Positions 47,981-56,890 of a stretch of DNA of 64,000 nt are shown here, piece after piece. The translations under genes and the position numbers were made by a program. Within the stretch, counting starts at the first letter, position 1. Each line of letters starts with the position of its first letter. The notes under the pieces are model-generated. The model was given only the letters and a program-made list of their open reading frames with translations, had not been told where the DNA came from and did no database searches. Origin of the DNA: Bryobacterales bacterium (GTDB lineage: Bacteria > Acidobacteriota > Terriglobia > Bryobacterales > UBA6623); NCBI GenBank assembly GCA_028819215.1, contig JAPPMG010000015.1, positions 1 through 64,000 on the forward strand, in the 5' to 3' direction.

Positions 47981-49570
47981 ATGGCGCTCAGAATGGTGGG
48001 TCTAGGAAGCAACCAGCGGAAACCACTTGGACTTCTTCGAGCCGTCCTGCTTGCTGCGCTGGCGGGAGCGTTGTCGGTGTGCCAGCACGCGCCACTGGCC
48101 TCAGATCCGCCCAACATCGTCTTCATCTTGGCTGACGACCTCGGTTACGGTGATCTCAGTTCCTACGGGGCGACGGCAATCCAGACTCCGAACATCGATC
48201 GTCTGGCGAGCGAAGGCATGCTCTTCACCGACGCCCATAGCCCGTCGTCGGTGTGCACCCCCACTCGATATGGCTTGCTGACAGGGCGATATTGCTGGCG
48301 GACGTGGCTGACGCGAAGCGCTCTGAGTTCGGATGCGCCGTTGTTGATCGAGGAGAACCGCCCGACAGTGGCTTCTGTGCTGAAATCTGCCGGCTACTAC
48401 ACCGCCCACATCGGAAAGTGGCACTTGGGATTCGGCCGCGAGGACGATTACGCCAACGACCGAGAGGGGCAGGGCGAGCCGAATTCTTGGCGGAGCAGGA
48501 AGGGTGGCCCCGACTGGAACGGAGAACTCAAGCCGGGCCCGCTCGAGGTTGGCTTCGACTACTATTTCGGGATCCCCATTGTGAACTCGTACCCGCCGTA
48601 CGTCTTCGTGGAGAATCACCGTGTCGCAGGACTGGATCAGGACGACCCGATCGGCCAGATGGAGTCTCGCTATTTGGGGGAGATGCAAGGCGGCAAGGCC
48701 GCCCGTTGGACGGACAATGCACTCGCAACGGAGCTGAGTGCAAGAACGGTCTCCCTGTTGGAGCGACTCGCGAACCAAGACCAGCCGTTCTTCCTGTACT
48801 ACGCTCCGCACCAGCCCCACAGGCCGTTCACACCGAACGTCCGGTTCAAGGGCGCAAGTCAGTTCGGCGTATATGGCGACTTCATCCAGGAGCTGGACTG
48901 GTCGGTGGGCGAGGTGCTCGACGCGCTGGAAAGTCTGGAGTTGGCGGAAAGCACACTGGTGGTCTTCTCGAGCGACAACGGTGGGCTGACGGACCCGGCC
49001 TCCAGCAATGCACAGAGGGGCGCCGGCTATGGTGACGGAGAGGCGCCTGCCACGCCGGAGGTCGAACACCAGGCCAACGGGCCCGTTCTCCGTGGCGGCA
49101 AGGGCGATATTTGGGAAGGCGGTCACCGCATTCCCTTCCTTGCCCGGTGGCCCGGAAAGATCAAGGCTGGGACACGGTCCGAGGAGACGATCAGCCTGAC
49201 AGACATGCTGGCCACGTTCGCGGCACTCGCCGGACAGGAGCTGACGGATGATGCCGGCCCGGACAGCTTCAACGTGCTGCCCGCTCTGCTTGAGGGAGAG
49301 CTTGACGATTCTCTGCGCCGCCCAAGGGTCATGCAGAGCGGCGGCATCAGCGGGATGCTCTCTATTCGCGATGGTCCTTGGAAATTGATTGACGGCCAGG
49401 GTGGCGGCGGGTATCGCGACGGCAGAGCTGAGCCTGGCGAGCCACCGCAACTGTACAACTTGAGCCAAGACCTTGGGGAAGACACGGACGTTTACGGCCA
49501 GCATCCAGACCTCGCTAGGCGGCTGCGGCAGCTCTTGCACAAGATCAAGGCGGAGGGACGCAGTCGATGA
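47981..49570 (+). CDS. Sulfatase lipoprotein (arylsulfatase A/GALNS-like)
   Basis: 529 residues. Signal with possible lipobox LSVC (Cys 34), then PNIVFILADDLGYGDLSSYG with metal-binding Asp 52-53. Formylglycine site Cys 92 in CTPTRYGLLTGRY. Next landmarks: the metal-site Lys/His in GKWHLGFGRED, and FSSDNGGLTD for the second metal pair. About 45% of recognisable blocks are shared with the sulfatase at 51.6 kb (SALS, PLLIEE, GPDWNGELKPGPLEVGFDY), so the two are paralogs. ATG 47993 is an equally possible start. First gene of a same-strand run of four sulfatases and a glycosidase. Confidence 0.92.
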   Translation: MALRMVGLGSNQRKPLGLLRAVLLAALAGALSVCQHAPLASDPPNIVFILADDLGYGDLSSYGATAIQTPNIDRLASEGMLFTDAHSPSSVCTPTRYGLLTGRYCWRTWLTRSALSSDAPLLIEENRPTVASVLKSAGYYTAHIGKWHLGFGREDDYANDREGQGEPNSWRSRKGGPDWNGELKPGPLEVGFDYYFGIPIVNSYPPYVFVENHRVAGLDQDDPIGQMESRYLGEMQGGKAARWTDNALATELSARTVSLLERLANQDQPFFLYYAPHQPHRPFTPNVRFKGASQFGVYGDFIQELDWSVGEVLDALESLELAESTLVVFSSDNGGLTDPASSNAQRGAGYGDGEAPATPEVEHQANGPVLRGGKGDIWEGGHRIPFLARWPGKIKAGTRSEETISLTDMLATFAALAGQELTDDAGPDSFNVLPALLEGELDDSLRRPRVMQSGGISGMLSIRDGPWKLIDGQGGGGYRDGRAEPGEPPQLYNLSQDLGEDTDVYGQHPDLARRLRQLLHKIKAEGRSR

Positions 49571-49611: not shown

Positions 49612-51591
49612 ATGAATTGTGTAATGCGAACTCACTTATGGGCGATGCTATCGCTCTCGCTCATCCTGACCGGATGCCAATCGTTCCGGGCGGATCGTCC
49701 GAATATCCTGTGGATCTCGCTCTAAGACATCACGCCGATGATGGGTGCATTCGGAGACGAGTACGCTCGCACGCCAGTTTTTGACAGCCTTGCCGCAGAG
49801 GGCATCCGCTATGACAAGGCTTACTCGGTGTCCCCGGTGTGCTCCCCGTCACGGTCGAGCGTGATTACGGGCATGTATCCGAATTCGCTGGGAAGCATGC
49901 ATCACCGAAGCAATACAAGACGGCCAGAGTTCTCAGAGATGCTCCCGAATCTCTTCCGCGAGTCAGGCTATTACACGACCAACAACCGCAAGAGAGACTA
50001 CAACATGGGAGGCGATGACTGGCACGAGAGCAGCGATGGGGCCCATTGGAGGAATCGACCCACTAACGACCAGCCGTTCTTCGCCGTGTTCAACCTTGGA
50101 GAGTGCCATTCGAGCATAACGAAGATTCCGGAAGACGAGATCGTCGAGGCGCGATTGTCTCGCCTCAAGCCAGAGGATTTCCACGACCCGACGGAGGCTC
50201 CGATTCCGCCGTACCACCCCGATGTGCCGCAGTTTCGCAGGGCGTGGGCGCGCTACTACGATGCGGTCACACAGGTTGACTATCGAGCCGGCGAACTGAT
50301 CGACCAGCTAAAGGAGGACGGCCTCTGGGAGGACACGATCGTCTTCGTGTGGTCCGATCACGGCGTGGGCATGCCTCGGGGAAAACATACGGCATGGGAA
50401 CAGGGCCTCCACGTTCCCTTGATTGCGCGCTTCCCGGAGAAGTATCAGCACCTCGCTCCCGCCGACCCGGGATCGGTGATTGGTGGGCTGGTGACGTTGA
50501 TGGATCTGGGCCCTTCAGCTTTGTCGCTGGCGGGGATCGATCCACCCGAATACATGCATGGCAGGCCGCTATTTTCCAAACGCAACGGCGATGGCGAGTA
50601 CAGGGACTACGTTTTCGCGATGCGTGACCGGCTTGACACCCGGTCTGAGATGGTCCGCACCGTGCGCGACCAACGATATCGCTACCACAGAAACTTCTAC
50701 CCGCAGCTTCCATTCAAGCCCTTCGAGGACTATGAGTTTGATGCAGTGGTGGTTCGGCATTGGGTCGAGCTGGCGCGCCAGGGGAAGCTCACCGGCCCCC
50801 AGGAAATGCTAGCCATGCGGTTCAAGCCGCTCGAGGAGCTCTACGACTCGGAGAACGATCCTCACATGGTCAGAAACGTGGCCGGCGATCCCGAGTACGC
50901 CGAAGTTCTCCAAAGAATGCGCGGCCGGCTCAGCGATTGGATGCTGGAAACGCGGGACCTCGGCCTGCTCGACGAGACGGAAATGCTCGAGCGCGAGAAT
51001 GCAACGGCATCCCCGTGGGATCTCGGACAGTCGCTCGAGAACTATGAGCGGATCCTCGAGACGGCCGACCTGCAGGTTCAGGGGCCGACGGCGATCCCCG
51101 AATTGATCGCCCGAACCGAAGATCCCGACTCGGCGGTCCGTTTCTGGGCGGCGCTCGGCCTGGCGGTCGCAGGACGAATCGGTGGATCGGAAAGTGTTTC
51201 GAACGTGGCGCCGGCCTTGGAGGCGGCCTTGCAGGATGAGTCAGTCAGCGTGCGCCTCACTGCGGCCGAAGGCCTCTTCGACCTCGGACGCTACGAGAAA
51301 GGCCTGCCGATCCTCGTCGAGGCCTTGAATCATCCCAGCGTCGATGCTCAGATTCGGGCCGGCTGCATTCTCGATTCTCAGCCGCCGGACGCAAACGAAG
51401 AACTCCAGCCCGCTATAGAACCACTCCAACGGACCGTGGAAAGATTCGAACAACAATCACGTTTCGGGTCAACCAATAACCCGTTCAAGCGAGCCCTCAA
51501 GGCCATCAGTGGTGAAGAGACGTATTACCGATGGGGTCCGGGCGCGTCGGGATCACCTCCCGACAAACCGGAGGCTGGTAGCGGGGCCTAA
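49612..51591 (+). pseudogene. Sulfatase-HEAT fusion interrupted by in-frame TAA at codon 38
   Basis: From ATG 49612 the frame reads MNCVMRTHLWAMLSLSLILT then GCQSFRADRPNILWISL, a TAA (49723-49725), and DITPMMGAFGDEYARTPVFD. All parts belong to one sulfatase: lipobox LTGC, the first strand RPNILWIS, formylglycine site CSPSR (Cys at codon 77) and WSDHGVGMPRGKH. The stop replaces what is normally Glu or Asp in the WIS-x-ED metal site, so one base change (GAA to TAA) would explain it. C-terminal HEAT repeats lie at about codons 485-610. The remainder (617 codons from 49738) is intact, so the lesion is recent, a read error, or read through. A restart at 49735/49738 would lose signal and metal ligand. 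Confidence 0.8.
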
Positions 51592-51611: not shown

Positions 51612-53159
51612 ATGCGCAGGGAATTCGTTAGCCTCACCCGAACGGCGGTCGTCGGATCGGCCCTCGGAGGCGCGCTGCTGGCGTGGGCGTGTGCGTGCGG
51701 GGAGGCCCGCGACAAACCCAACATCGTGCTAATCCTCGCCGACGACTTGGGGTACGGCGACCTCAGTTCCTACGGTGCCACGAAGATCCGGACTCCAAAC
51801 ATCGACAGCCTCGCCACTCAGGGCGTGCTCTTTACCGACGCCCACACGGAAGCCTCGACATGCACGCCTACGCGATACGGACTGATGACCGGCCGATATA
51901 GCTGGCGGACCTGGCTGAAGTACAGCGCCTTGAGTACCAGCGCGCCGCTGTTGATCGAAGAAGATCGGATGACAGTTGCTTCTCTTCTGAAGTCCGCGGG
52001 TTACTCGACGTCGATCGTGGGCAAGTGGCACCTCGGTTTCGGACGCGAAGACGGGTTCGGAGAGAACCGGGGCAACACGCCGCCCAACTACTGGGAGACT
52101 AGGGCCAGCGGTCCTGACTGGAACGGCGAACTCAAGCCCGGGCCGTTGGAGGTTGGATTTGACTACTCCTACGTGATTCCCGTAGCGAACAGTTTTCCGC
52201 CATACGTGTTCGTTGAGAATCACCACGTCGCAGGTCTCCGCGCGGAAAGCCCGATCGGAAAACTGGAGTCGAGGAATTACGGAAGAATGGACGGCGGCGA
52301 CGGAGCCCGCTGGACAGACGAAGAACTTATCGACCAGTTTGCCGGCAAAGTCGTGTCACAACTGGAGAGTCTCGCGAAGCAGCAGCCGTTCTTCTTGTAT
52401 TACACGCCCACTCATCCTCACATTGGGTCCCGCAACGTCAATGGGCAGGTGCACTGGCCGAGTGGCCGCTTTCAAGGGACAAGCCAGGCTGGTCCGTTCG
52501 GCGACGTGATTCACGAACTGGATTGGTCCGTCGGCGAGATTCTGAACACGCTGGATCGGCTTGGGATCGCCGAGGATACGTTGGTGATATTTTCCAGCGA
52601 CAACGGCGGGTATACTCGCGACTTCAACGGGCACAGGCCGAATGGTCCCATCCTCCGGGGCGGCAAAGGGGATCTGGTCGAGGGCGGGCACCGCGTGCCG
52701 TTCCTCGCGCGATGGCCGGGCAAGATCAAGCCGGGCACACGCTCAGGCGAAACGATCTCATTGACCGACATGCTGGCCACTGTTGCGGCAATAGTCGGCG
52801 AGGAACTGCCGCTCGGTGCCGGGCCGGACAGCTGCAACGTGCTGCCTGCTCTTCTTGGGCAGGAGCTGGCAGACCGCGATCGCCCGATGGTGATGCTGAG
52901 CGGCGGGATGGGAGCGCTCGCGATCCGGGCGGGGAAGTGGAAGCTCATTGCCGGACAAGGCAATTGCGGTTATGCACATTTCCGCGCCGGGAAGCCAATG
53001 CCGGCGCCCCAATCCGGAGACCCCCCGGCGCAACTGTACGACTTGGAGGAAGACGTCGGCGAGAGGAACAACCTCTATGACGAACACCCGGAAATCGTGC
53101 AGCGCCTCGAGGAACTCCTGCAACAGGTCAAGGACGAAGAGCTTAGCCGAACCCCGTGA
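51612..53159 (+). CDS. Sulfatase (arylsulfatase A/GALNS-like)
   Basis: 515 residues, exported by a signal peptide ending near residue 29 (AWACACG; Cys 29 could be lipidated). Metal-binding Asp 44-45 in ILADDLGYGDLSS, formylglycine Cys 84 in CTPTRYGLMTGRY, GKWHLGFGREDG, and FSSDNGGYTRD for the second metal pair. AGGAGC precedes the ATG. It shares long blocks with the sulfatase at 48.0 kb, from which it probably arose by duplication; the broken HEAT-sulfatase sits between them. Twenty bases separate it from that upstream gene, so co-transcription is likely. Confidence 0.93.
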   Translation: MRREFVSLTRTAVVGSALGGALLAWACACGEARDKPNIVLILADDLGYGDLSSYGATKIRTPNIDSLATQGVLFTDAHTEASTCTPTRYGLMTGRYSWRTWLKYSALSTSAPLLIEEDRMTVASLLKSAGYSTSIVGKWHLGFGREDGFGENRGNTPPNYWETRASGPDWNGELKPGPLEVGFDYSYVIPVANSFPPYVFVENHHVAGLRAESPIGKLESRNYGRMDGGDGARWTDEELIDQFAGKVVSQLESLAKQQPFFLYYTPTHPHIGSRNVNGQVHWPSGRFQGTSQAGPFGDVIHELDWSVGEILNTLDRLGIAEDTLVIFSSDNGGYTRDFNGHRPNGPILRGGKGDLVEGGHRVPFLARWPGKIKPGTRSGETISLTDMLATVAAIVGEELPLGAGPDSCNVLPALLGQELADRDRPMVMLSGGMGALAIRAGKWKLIAGQGNCGYAHFRAGKPMPAPQSGDPPAQLYDLEEDVGERNNLYDEHPEIVQRLEELLQQVKDEELSRTP

Positions 53160-53200
53160 TCTGTTTCTGTGACAACGAGCGGACAACGAAGGAGCAAACC

Positions 53201-55249
53201 ATGAAACGATTCGTGCTCGGTTGGTTGACGGCCATCCTGCTACTTCTCACGCCACTGCCGACAGGGGCGGAGATTTGGATCGGCGTGCACTACGAGTATC
53301 CTTTCGGCGGCATGATGGCAGACCGGCCGGAATGGATTCCCAAAGGCGAGAAAGACTGGCGTCGTGACTTGGAGATGATCAAGGACACCGGCTTCAACCT
53401 GATCCGCATCCGCGTCGGGCTGGATTCCGACATCGACGACATCGCGACGTTGCTCGACATCTCCCAGGAACTCGGCATCAGGGTGGAATTCGGCAGTGCC
53501 ATGTTCTATGTGTCCAACGAGTTCGTCACGACGCACCCCGACTCTAAGATGATCATGCCCGATGGCGAAAAGATCCCTCGGGACGAGTTGGACTACCGCT
53601 GGCCGCGGGCCTGCATTCACCACCCTGAGTTTCGCCGCCAGCGAGATGAGTTCTTTGACGCGTGCGCCCAGCGATTCAGGGACCATCCCGCTGTCATCGC
53701 TTGGGATGTTCACAATGAACCGTCCTTTCGCGACTGCCGTTCTGACAACACGCTGGCCGAGTATCGACGCACCGTCGAGAGGGAATTCGGTGACGTTGGG
53801 CAATACAACCGGCGGTTCAGCACCTCGTTTTCGAGCTTGAATGACGTGGTGCCGCCGAACGAGCGTTCCGAGAACGTCGAGGCACACCGTCACTGGCGGG
53901 CGTTTCTGACCTCGGAACTCAATCGGTATCTCAACGAGCTGCGAGACATTGTCCGCAGGCACGTGCCTGAATTGCCGATTACGTACAACCCGACGAACCC
54001 GTTTGGCGTTAGCCGCACGTCGCAGGACTGGTGGAACCTCCAGAGCTACGACCTGATGTCTGCCAGTCACTACGCCGCTTCCGGAGAAGATACGCAGAGC
54101 AAGTCCGTCCAGCTGGCGATGATGAAGGCCCTCGGGCCGGGAAAAGATTGGTGGATCGCCGAGTTCCAAGGCGGCCCATTCATCCTTGGTGACCGCGACA
54201 CGCTTTACAACGGCAAGCAGATGGTGCTGGAACTGAATGCCGCCCTAGCCCACAACATGCAAGGGGTCATCTTCTATCGCTGGGACCCGTTGCTGAACGG
54301 TCCGGAGCCTTGGATCAACGCAATTATCGGTGCGGACACTTACGACACGGAACGGCGTCTGACGTTGAAGAAGGGCATCGCCGAGTTGCGGGAGTATCGC
54401 GATGTCCTCGAGCGAGGCAGGAGCATCGCCCCCAGTGTCGGCATCTATCTCCGAAGGGACCACGCCGTTCACAGCAGCGAAATGGGCTACGACCTCCAAC
54501 AAGCAATGTACGGCAACTATTCGATGCTCAGTGCACTGGGATATGAAGCCGCAGTCGTGTTGGATGAGTTCGACCCTGCCGACTGCCCCTACGATGCGAT
54601 GATCTTCCCGTATACGTACATCGACACGGAGCTGGCAGCGGCCATCCGGCAGTACGCCAGATCAGGAAAACGAGCCATTGTCGAACTGCCGGTCGAGGAC
54701 ATCGACGCGGCTAAGGCGATTGGCGAGCAGTACGGAGTGCAGGTCGTCGACCACGAAGAGCCTATCTATTGGTTCAATGGCTGGGACCTGCGGGGCACCG
54801 GTGAGGAGCCGGGAGCGCAGGAGGGCCAGTTCGCCGGCTTTGGCGCCCACGAGCGGCTATTGTTGGATGCCCCCGGGCAACAGGTGTTGTTGACCTACGG
54901 CCTGGATGGCAGCCCCGCCGTCATCGCACCCGCGGGATTCGGCGGCAATGTACTGCTCTTCGGCTTCCCCTTGGGCAGGACTCACGCCACGATGCTGCAC
55001 CAAGACCTAAGGGGCTTCGTGGGGAGATTCATCGGAGGGAAAGTTCAGCCCGATATCGTCCTCAAGGGCGTCCCCGACGAATATCGGTCGATGGTCGAGA
55101 CTCGGGTGATCGAGACCGATGACGAGGGCCTGCTGTTCGTCATCAACCGTGGCTTGTACGACCATGAACTGCAAGTCGCTGTGAAGGGTTACAAGCCAAT
55201 CACGACGAGAGTCGGGATGTACAGCGTAACCAAGCAGCTGCTGAATTGA
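53201..55249 (+). CDS. Secreted GH42-like glycoside hydrolase (putative beta-galactosidase)
   Basis: 682 residues. The ATG at 53201 follows AAGGAG and starts the signal peptide MKRFVLGWLTAILLLLTPLP ending TGA. A (beta/alpha)8 barrel fills residues 25-400: the acid/base is Glu 173 in WDVHNEPSF and the nucleophile candidate is Glu 321 in WWIAEFQGG, the GH42/clan GH-A arrangement. From about 420 a Rossmann-like domain (PYDAMIFPYTYIDTELAAAI) matches the trimerisation domain of GH42, and a small beta domain ends the protein. GH42 enzymes usually release beta-galactosyl residues. Lying between sulfatases, it would act on a desulfated galactan; this is inference. Confidence 0.87.
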   Translation: MKRFVLGWLTAILLLLTPLPTGAEIWIGVHYEYPFGGMMADRPEWIPKGEKDWRRDLEMIKDTGFNLIRIRVGLDSDIDDIATLLDISQELGIRVEFGSAMFYVSNEFVTTHPDSKMIMPDGEKIPRDELDYRWPRACIHHPEFRRQRDEFFDACAQRFRDHPAVIAWDVHNEPSFRDCRSDNTLAEYRRTVEREFGDVGQYNRRFSTSFSSLNDVVPPNERSENVEAHRHWRAFLTSELNRYLNELRDIVRRHVPELPITYNPTNPFGVSRTSQDWWNLQSYDLMSASHYAASGEDTQSKSVQLAMMKALGPGKDWWIAEFQGGPFILGDRDTLYNGKQMVLELNAALAHNMQGVIFYRWDPLLNGPEPWINAIIGADTYDTERRLTLKKGIAELREYRDVLERGRSIAPSVGIYLRRDHAVHSSEMGYDLQQAMYGNYSMLSALGYEAAVVLDEFDPADCPYDAMIFPYTYIDTELAAAIRQYARSGKRAIVELPVEDIDAAKAIGEQYGVQVVDHEEPIYWFNGWDLRGTGEEPGAQEGQFAGFGAHERLLLDAPGQQVLLTYGLDGSPAVIAPAGFGGNVLLFGFPLGRTHATMLHQDLRGFVGRFIGGKVQPDIVLKGVPDEYRSMVETRVIETDDEGLLFVINRGLYDHELQVAVKGYKPITTRVGMYSVTKQLLN

Positions 55250-55273
55250 CATACTGCACGCGGGACAACAATC

Positions 55274-56890
55274 GTGTCCAAGAGTTCGTTCCGGCCTTCG
55301 GAGCACGTTCTGGCGGCGCTCTTGGTCACCGTCACCGCATGTGGAGTGGATCGGACGGGCCCCACGTCATCCCGCGCTGGGCGGGCCCCCACGCCTGCAG
55401 ATAAGCCCAACATCATCGTTTTCTTGGTCGATGACATGGGGCTGATGGACACTTCAGTGCCTATGCTGACCGATGACGACGGCAGGCCGCAGCGCCATCC
55501 GCTCAACGACTGGTATCGCACGCCGAATATGGAACGGCTCGCCGCGACAGGCACCCGGTTCAGCAACTTCTACTCCCACAGCGTCTGCTCGCCGACACGC
55601 ATCTCGATCATGACCGGGCAGAACGCCGCCCGCCACCGAACTACCGACTACATCAATCCCTGGCAGGACAATCGCACGCTAGACAACCAGGCGTTCCCGC
55701 TGGCGGTGTCGCAGCGGGGCCCGCCCGAGTGGAACTGGGCCGGCCTGAAGCGGCGCGATCTGACCATGGCAATGCTCTTGAGACAGGTTGGATACACGAC
55801 CATCCATGTCGGCAAGGCGCATTTTGCTCCCTTTGATCATGAAGGCGCTGACCCACTGAATCTCGGGTTCGATGTGAATGTCGCGGGCTCCGCCATCGGA
55901 GCGCCGGGTTCTTATCAGGGCCAGGACGATTACGGGAAAGAGTCCACGAGACTGTTGGCGCGCCCGGTTCCCGGCCTCGACAAGTATCACGGCACGGACA
56001 CCTTCTTGACCGAAGCCCTGACTCTGGAAGCTGTGAGCGAAGTAGACAGAGCGCTGGATGAGCAGAAACCGTTTTTCCTACATATGTCCCACTACGCGGT
56101 GCACTCGCCCTTCCACTCCGATGCTCGTTTCGCGGCGCGTTACCGAGACCGAGGCAGGAGTAGTCCAGCCCAGAACTACGCGACCCTGATCGAAGGCATC
56201 GACAAGTCGCTGGGAGACCTGATGGATCACCTTGAATCAAAGGGCATCGCGGAGAACACGCTGATCATTTTCCTTGGGGACAACGGAGGAGATGCCCCGC
56301 TGGCGGGCACGGATGACATCTCGTCCAGCGCGCCCTTGCGGGGCCGGAAGGGCAGCAAGTGGGAGGGCGGCGTGCGGGTTCCTTTCATTGCCGCCTGGGG
56401 CAAGCCCCATGCGAACAATCGGTGGCAGAAGAAACTACCAATCCCCGTGGGCGGCATTCGCCAGGAGGTCGGAGTCTGTTACGACCTGTTTCCGACCATT
56501 CTGGATCTGGTCGACGCGCCGGTCCCTGCAGGCCACCCAGTCGATGGCCGCAATCTCAGGCTGTTACTGGCTGGGCAATCGGATCCGAAATATCGAAACG
56601 CGTTCCTGAACCACTATCCCCACCCGCGTCGCGGAGAGAGCCATTTCTTCACCACCTGGCGTAAGGGCGACTGGAAGGTGCGTTATGAGTATCTTGCTGA
56701 AGGTGACAAGCGTTACGCCCTCTACAACTTGGCAGAGGATCCCAGCGAGTCACGGAACCTCGCGTCGGAAAATCCCGAACAGCTAGCGAGCATGATGCAG
56801 GACATGGTCAACGAACTGGAATCCATGGAGGCGGTGTATCCGTTGCAGGCCGGGCGCCCGTTGGAACCAGTCATTCCGAATTCGCCTTGA
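55274..56890 (+). CDS. Sulfatase lipoprotein (S1 family)
   Basis: 538 residues from a GTG start at 55274. Lipobox VTAC (Cys 23), then PNIIVFLVDDMGLMDTSVPM with metal-binding Asp 53-54, formylglycine Cys 105 in CSPTRISIMTGQN, HVGKAHFAPF and FLGDNGGDAPL. A 30-residue insertion after the first strand (DDDGRPQRHPLNDWYRTPNM) separates it from the GALNS-like paralogs and points to another subfamily and probably another position of sulfate. It ends the same-strand run; 24 bp separate it from the GH42-like gene. Confidence 0.92.
   Translation: MSKSSFRPSEHVLAALLVTVTACGVDRTGPTSSRAGRAPTPADKPNIIVFLVDDMGLMDTSVPMLTDDDGRPQRHPLNDWYRTPNMERLAATGTRFSNFYSHSVCSPTRISIMTGQNAARHRTTDYINPWQDNRTLDNQAFPLAVSQRGPPEWNWAGLKRRDLTMAMLLRQVGYTTIHVGKAHFAPFDHEGADPLNLGFDVNVAGSAIGAPGSYQGQDDYGKESTRLLARPVPGLDKYHGTDTFLTEALTLEAVSEVDRALDEQKPFFLHMSHYAVHSPFHSDARFAARYRDRGRSSPAQNYATLIEGIDKSLGDLMDHLESKGIAENTLIIFLGDNGGDAPLAGTDDISSSAPLRGRKGSKWEGGVRVPFIAAWGKPHANNRWQKKLPIPVGGIRQEVGVCYDLFPTILDLVDAPVPAGHPVDGRNLRLLLAGQSDPKYRNAFLNHYPHPRRGESHFFTTWRKGDWKVRYEYLAEGDKRYALYNLAEDPSESRNLASENPEQLASMMQDMVNELESMEAVYPLQAGRPLEPVIPNSP

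Follow-up and report, generated by a model that had tools for sequence, protein, structure and literature searches.

A TAA codon at the first acid of the E-D pair in an S1_8-like sulfatase gene of a Bryobacterales bacterium

Closest solved relatives and the interrupted gene

The closest solved relatives of the sulfatase considered here are the S1_8 enzymes of the Pseudoalteromonas lambda-carrageenan pathway (PDB 9bba, 9bb9, 9bbd; PMC12549532), of which S1_8C, S1_8A and S1_8B are described as galactose-2-sulfate sulfatases (PMC12549532). These three are its best PDB matches, far above the next family, and the homology extends across the catalytic domain; an intact ortholog of the gene (L051) aligns with 9bba at E = 4e-72. 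Common to the S1_8 sulfatases and to the family of our gene are an E-D pair after the first strand and the K-x-DYN and DHG motifs. However, the sequences are distant, our gene adds a C-terminal HEAT region, and it alone carries a stop codon at the Glu of the pair. The locus, an S1-type gene on the forward strand at positions 49612 to 51591 of the 64,000-nucleotide stretch that we analysed (the window), is by sequence comparison most like the S1_8 galactose-2-sulfate sulfatases and would encode a formylglycine-class lipoprotein that carries a HEAT region at its C-terminus. The enzyme removes sulfate, probably from sulfated sugars. Its Glu38-Asp39 acids presumably bind the catalytic metal, as judged from general knowledge of sulfatases and from the alignment to the solved relatives.

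When translated, the frame is open throughout except for a single internal stop, a TAA at codon 38 (49723 to 49725, forward strand), which falls on the first acid of the E-D pair. The probable start codon is the ATG at 49612 to 49614, which has GGAG immediately upstream, leads into a lipoprotein signal peptide and is kept in the relatives; another in-frame ATG upstream, at 49567, overlaps the stop codon of the preceding gene and is out of frame in two relatives (G001 and G005) through a one-base indel. Upstream of the TAA lie the lipobox LILTGC and the first sulfatase strand RPNILWISL, and downstream of it follow DITP, CSPSR, the SDHG metal site and the HEAT tail, such that the motif around the stop reads RPNILWISL*DITP. 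In the part after the stop, Pfam recognizes a Sulfatase domain (2.3e-37) and HEAT_2 (3.7e-12), the HEAT repeats occupying 51094 to 51345 (downstream-frame residues 453-536). The Sulfatase domain (PF00884) scores 129.4 bits against a curated cut-off of 25, even though the first 42 codons were left out. The formylglycine motif C-x-P-S-R is present as CSPSR, and the other positions checked for the catalytic Lys, His and Asp residues match those of intact relatives. It is only the N-terminal acidic metal pair (D-D or E-D) that is missing in the window, where the stop replaces the first acid, while the pair is found in all alignable orthologs. The gene is a member of the type I sulfatase family by descent, and this allele is broken. 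A sequence-only reading of the window had proposed one continuous sulfatase frame on both sides of the TAA, and translation, Pfam and the alignments all bear this out.

Conservation of the codon and age of the stop

The window comes from a 5.86-Mb assembly in 103 contigs, and the same-genus relatives are likewise Bryobacterales (Terriglobia) metagenome-assembled genomes (MAGs). Orthologs were found in five of these MAGs (G009, G010, G001, G005 and G003) and in four MAGs of Verrucomicrobiota. Apart from the G003 copy they have a common architecture, with DNA identities along the gene of 94% for G009 and G010, 87-88% for G001 and G005, and about 70% for the Verrucomicrobiota copies. All nine relatives that align over the stop have GAA or GAG (Glu) at the position of the TAA, a difference of one base. 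Among 63 distinct homologous N-termini the same column holds Glu in 33 and Asp in 27, the exceptions being two distant sequences that align poorly and the window's own, and the next column is Asp in 59. That the stop coincides with the first acid of the pair, as the sequence-only reading had it, is therefore confirmed by the nine relatives, by 60 of the 63 N-termini and by the S1_8 alignments. That reading had also allowed that homologs might begin after 49725, in which case there would be no anomaly. However, none does in the related genomes, and the start region, the signal peptide and the first strand are common to the relatives, which excludes a misplaced start.

Matching stops elsewhere were considered as well, since one internal stop had been flagged in each of the matches in G001, G003, G005 and G042. 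In G001 and G005 the flagged stop is where the gene normally terminates, a few codons short of the end of the window's copy, and the G042 locus has an open frame of 628 codons with Glu at the position. The local DNA motif was not found in a scan of viral contigs. As to the Verrucomicrobiota copies (L054, L055, L056 and L058), they are 67-71% identical to our gene at the protein level, more than any of the homologs searched in the same order beyond the genus, which reach 49% or less, and this closeness suggests a transfer of the sulfatase between phyla.

How long the stop has been in place can be bounded by polarising the changes between the window and its sister G009, G001 serving as outgroup. 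On the window branch there are 39 synonymous changes and, counting the stop, 13 nonsynonymous ones, where about 127 nonsynonymous changes would be expected under neutrality; the sister branch carries 35 and 20, respectively. Pairwise dN/dS of the interrupted gene is 0.11-0.13, and that of the neighbouring sulfatases against G009 is similar or slightly higher (0.15-0.16). Since the gene has been as constrained along the window branch as its neighbours, the stop is either very recent or unreal. If a functional dN/dS of 0.05-0.13 is assumed, on which the limit depends, at most about 3-11% of the window branch passed without selection, and the stop, unless it is an error of the assembled sequence, is very young, its age being less than about one tenth of the branch. 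An old pseudogene is excluded by selection that is intact along the branch. The absence of other damage, which had been read from the window alone, is upheld by the otherwise open frame and by the ratio of 39 synonymous to 12 amino-acid changes. Intact orthologs, a single lesion and intact selection along the branch are what is found in a young nonsense pseudogene.

A young null allele and its rivals

The most likely reading is that one of the genome's roughly 150 sulfatase genes is present here as a young null (pseudogene) allele. A single base substitution would have turned the conserved Glu codon 38 into TAA, translation would stop after 37 codons, and only the signal peptide and the first strand would be made. 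The change would be so recent that the downstream sequence, still intact, has had no time to decay. Such an allele resembles ordinary young bacterial nonsense pseudogenes in its single stop, its otherwise intact frame and the selection signature that is still present, and differs from them only in that the stop falls on an active-site codon, a position that chance allows. Both the presence of this base in the organism itself and the loss of the product are inferred.

It is possible, though in our view less likely, that the TAA is instead a consensus or assembly error, or the base of a minority strain in the MAG, and that the organism itself has an intact gene. Purifying selection that continues to the tip of the branch and the lack of a second lesion are just what an error would leave, and the sequence does stem from a metagenome assembly in many contigs. 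However, the site lies in the middle of a contig (C62, 124,646 bases) and outside any homopolymer, and single-base errors would be rare in a consensus built from deep short reads. Moreover, when about 31 genes of the window were compared pairwise with the syntenic stretch of the sister G009, the TAA at codon 38 was the only clear internal stop in a conserved frame, and the assembly is therefore not generally error-ridden. The balance between a null allele and a consensus error is a judgement rather than a measurement; we favour the null allele and regard error as its main rival.

A restart downstream of the stop is very unlikely. An ATG ATG pair does occur 12 bases past the stop, and the frame from the ATG at 49738 is open for 617 codons to 51591 (forward strand), from which a shortened cytoplasmic protein might be made and used. 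However, there is no Shine-Dalgarno-like sequence directly upstream of this ATG, and no relative uses it as a start. A protein begun there would have neither the signal peptide nor the first strand and would also be missing Glu38 and Asp39, the two N-terminal metal acids; it therefore could not be an active secreted sulfatase.

Readthrough or recoding of the stop, by which the full-length enzyme would be made, is more improbable still: conservation of the frame is all that speaks for it, and a young mutation explains this equally well, whereas the ordinary Glu codon of the relatives means that the stop is not conserved, and the genome has its release factors (RF1 above cut-off and, as second match of the same search, an RF2-like frame with the SPF and GGQ motifs). 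Among the 42 tRNA genes found, a set that may be incomplete since some expected anticodons are missing (estimated completeness 99%), none has a stop-reading anticodon. No internal stop occurs in the genome's 150 best sulfatase domains. TAA is the rarest terminator in sampled loci of the same genome but does serve as one, ending 5 of 68 long frames. Taken together, these observations exclude genome-wide recoding of TAA. In addition, ordinary misreading of TAA inserts mostly Gln, Lys or Tyr rather than an acidic ligand. It is likewise scarcely credible that a real TAA is read by a suppressor with an acidic residue at the metal site, or that it persists in the population as an on/off polymorphism of the sulfatase, with which the independent insertion in G003 described below would agree. 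Recent mutation is thus the favoured one of the four options left by the sequence-only reading, which were recent mutation, consensus error, readthrough and restart; the last two are unlikely, and even jointly have very little probability.

Loss of an accessory sulfatase in a sulfatase-rich genus

If the gene is a young null allele, its loss was probably tolerated because it is accessory and dispensable. A close ortholog is missing from 5 of 11 genomes of the genus, where the best match is about 43-44% identical. In G003 the gene is split, ending on one contig and resuming on another (L082:2109-2244 and L057:1-138). The non-gene ends of these contigs have a 15-base inverted terminal sequence in common, and both sides carry the gene segment GCCCTACCACCC, a 12-bp target duplication. 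G003 has at least ten copies of one end of the element, and G005 has related ends. The insertion is not spanned by any contig, and it is from the contig ends that we infer a multicopy insertion element to have broken the G003 sulfatase. The dispensability of the gene follows from this split copy, which also suggests an independent disruption of this gene in a relative.

The genus is unusually rich in sulfatases, with at least 150 sulfatase domains in the 5.86 Mb of the window genome and similar numbers in G009 and G010; the best paralogs of the interrupted gene in its own genome are 38-46% identical to it. A literature search on the sulfatases of sponge Bryobacterales or Acidobacteriota found nothing specific.

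Next to the interrupted gene, a 3.6-kb block (51753 to 55399) is absent at the corresponding site in G009, G010 and G001. It comprises most of a sulfatase gene (51612 to 53159), a GH42-type gene (53156 to 55249) and the N-terminus of a further sulfatase (55274 to 56890). Because a single sulfatase gene joins both sides at a shared DKPNI-coding sequence in these three relatives, the block appears to have been gained in the window lineage, and recombination between sulfatase genes is suggested as its origin.

In a genome with about 150 sulfatase genes, one recent stop among them is an ordinary event; it points neither to a new decoding mechanism nor to a new kind of system. Before genes of this sort in assembled genomes are described as broken or as recoded, they need a check at the level of reads. 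As an insertion element seems to have disrupted this gene in a relative too, the locus offers a mild example of the repeated loss of an accessory gene for polysaccharide degradation in a sulfatase-rich genus of Bryobacterales.
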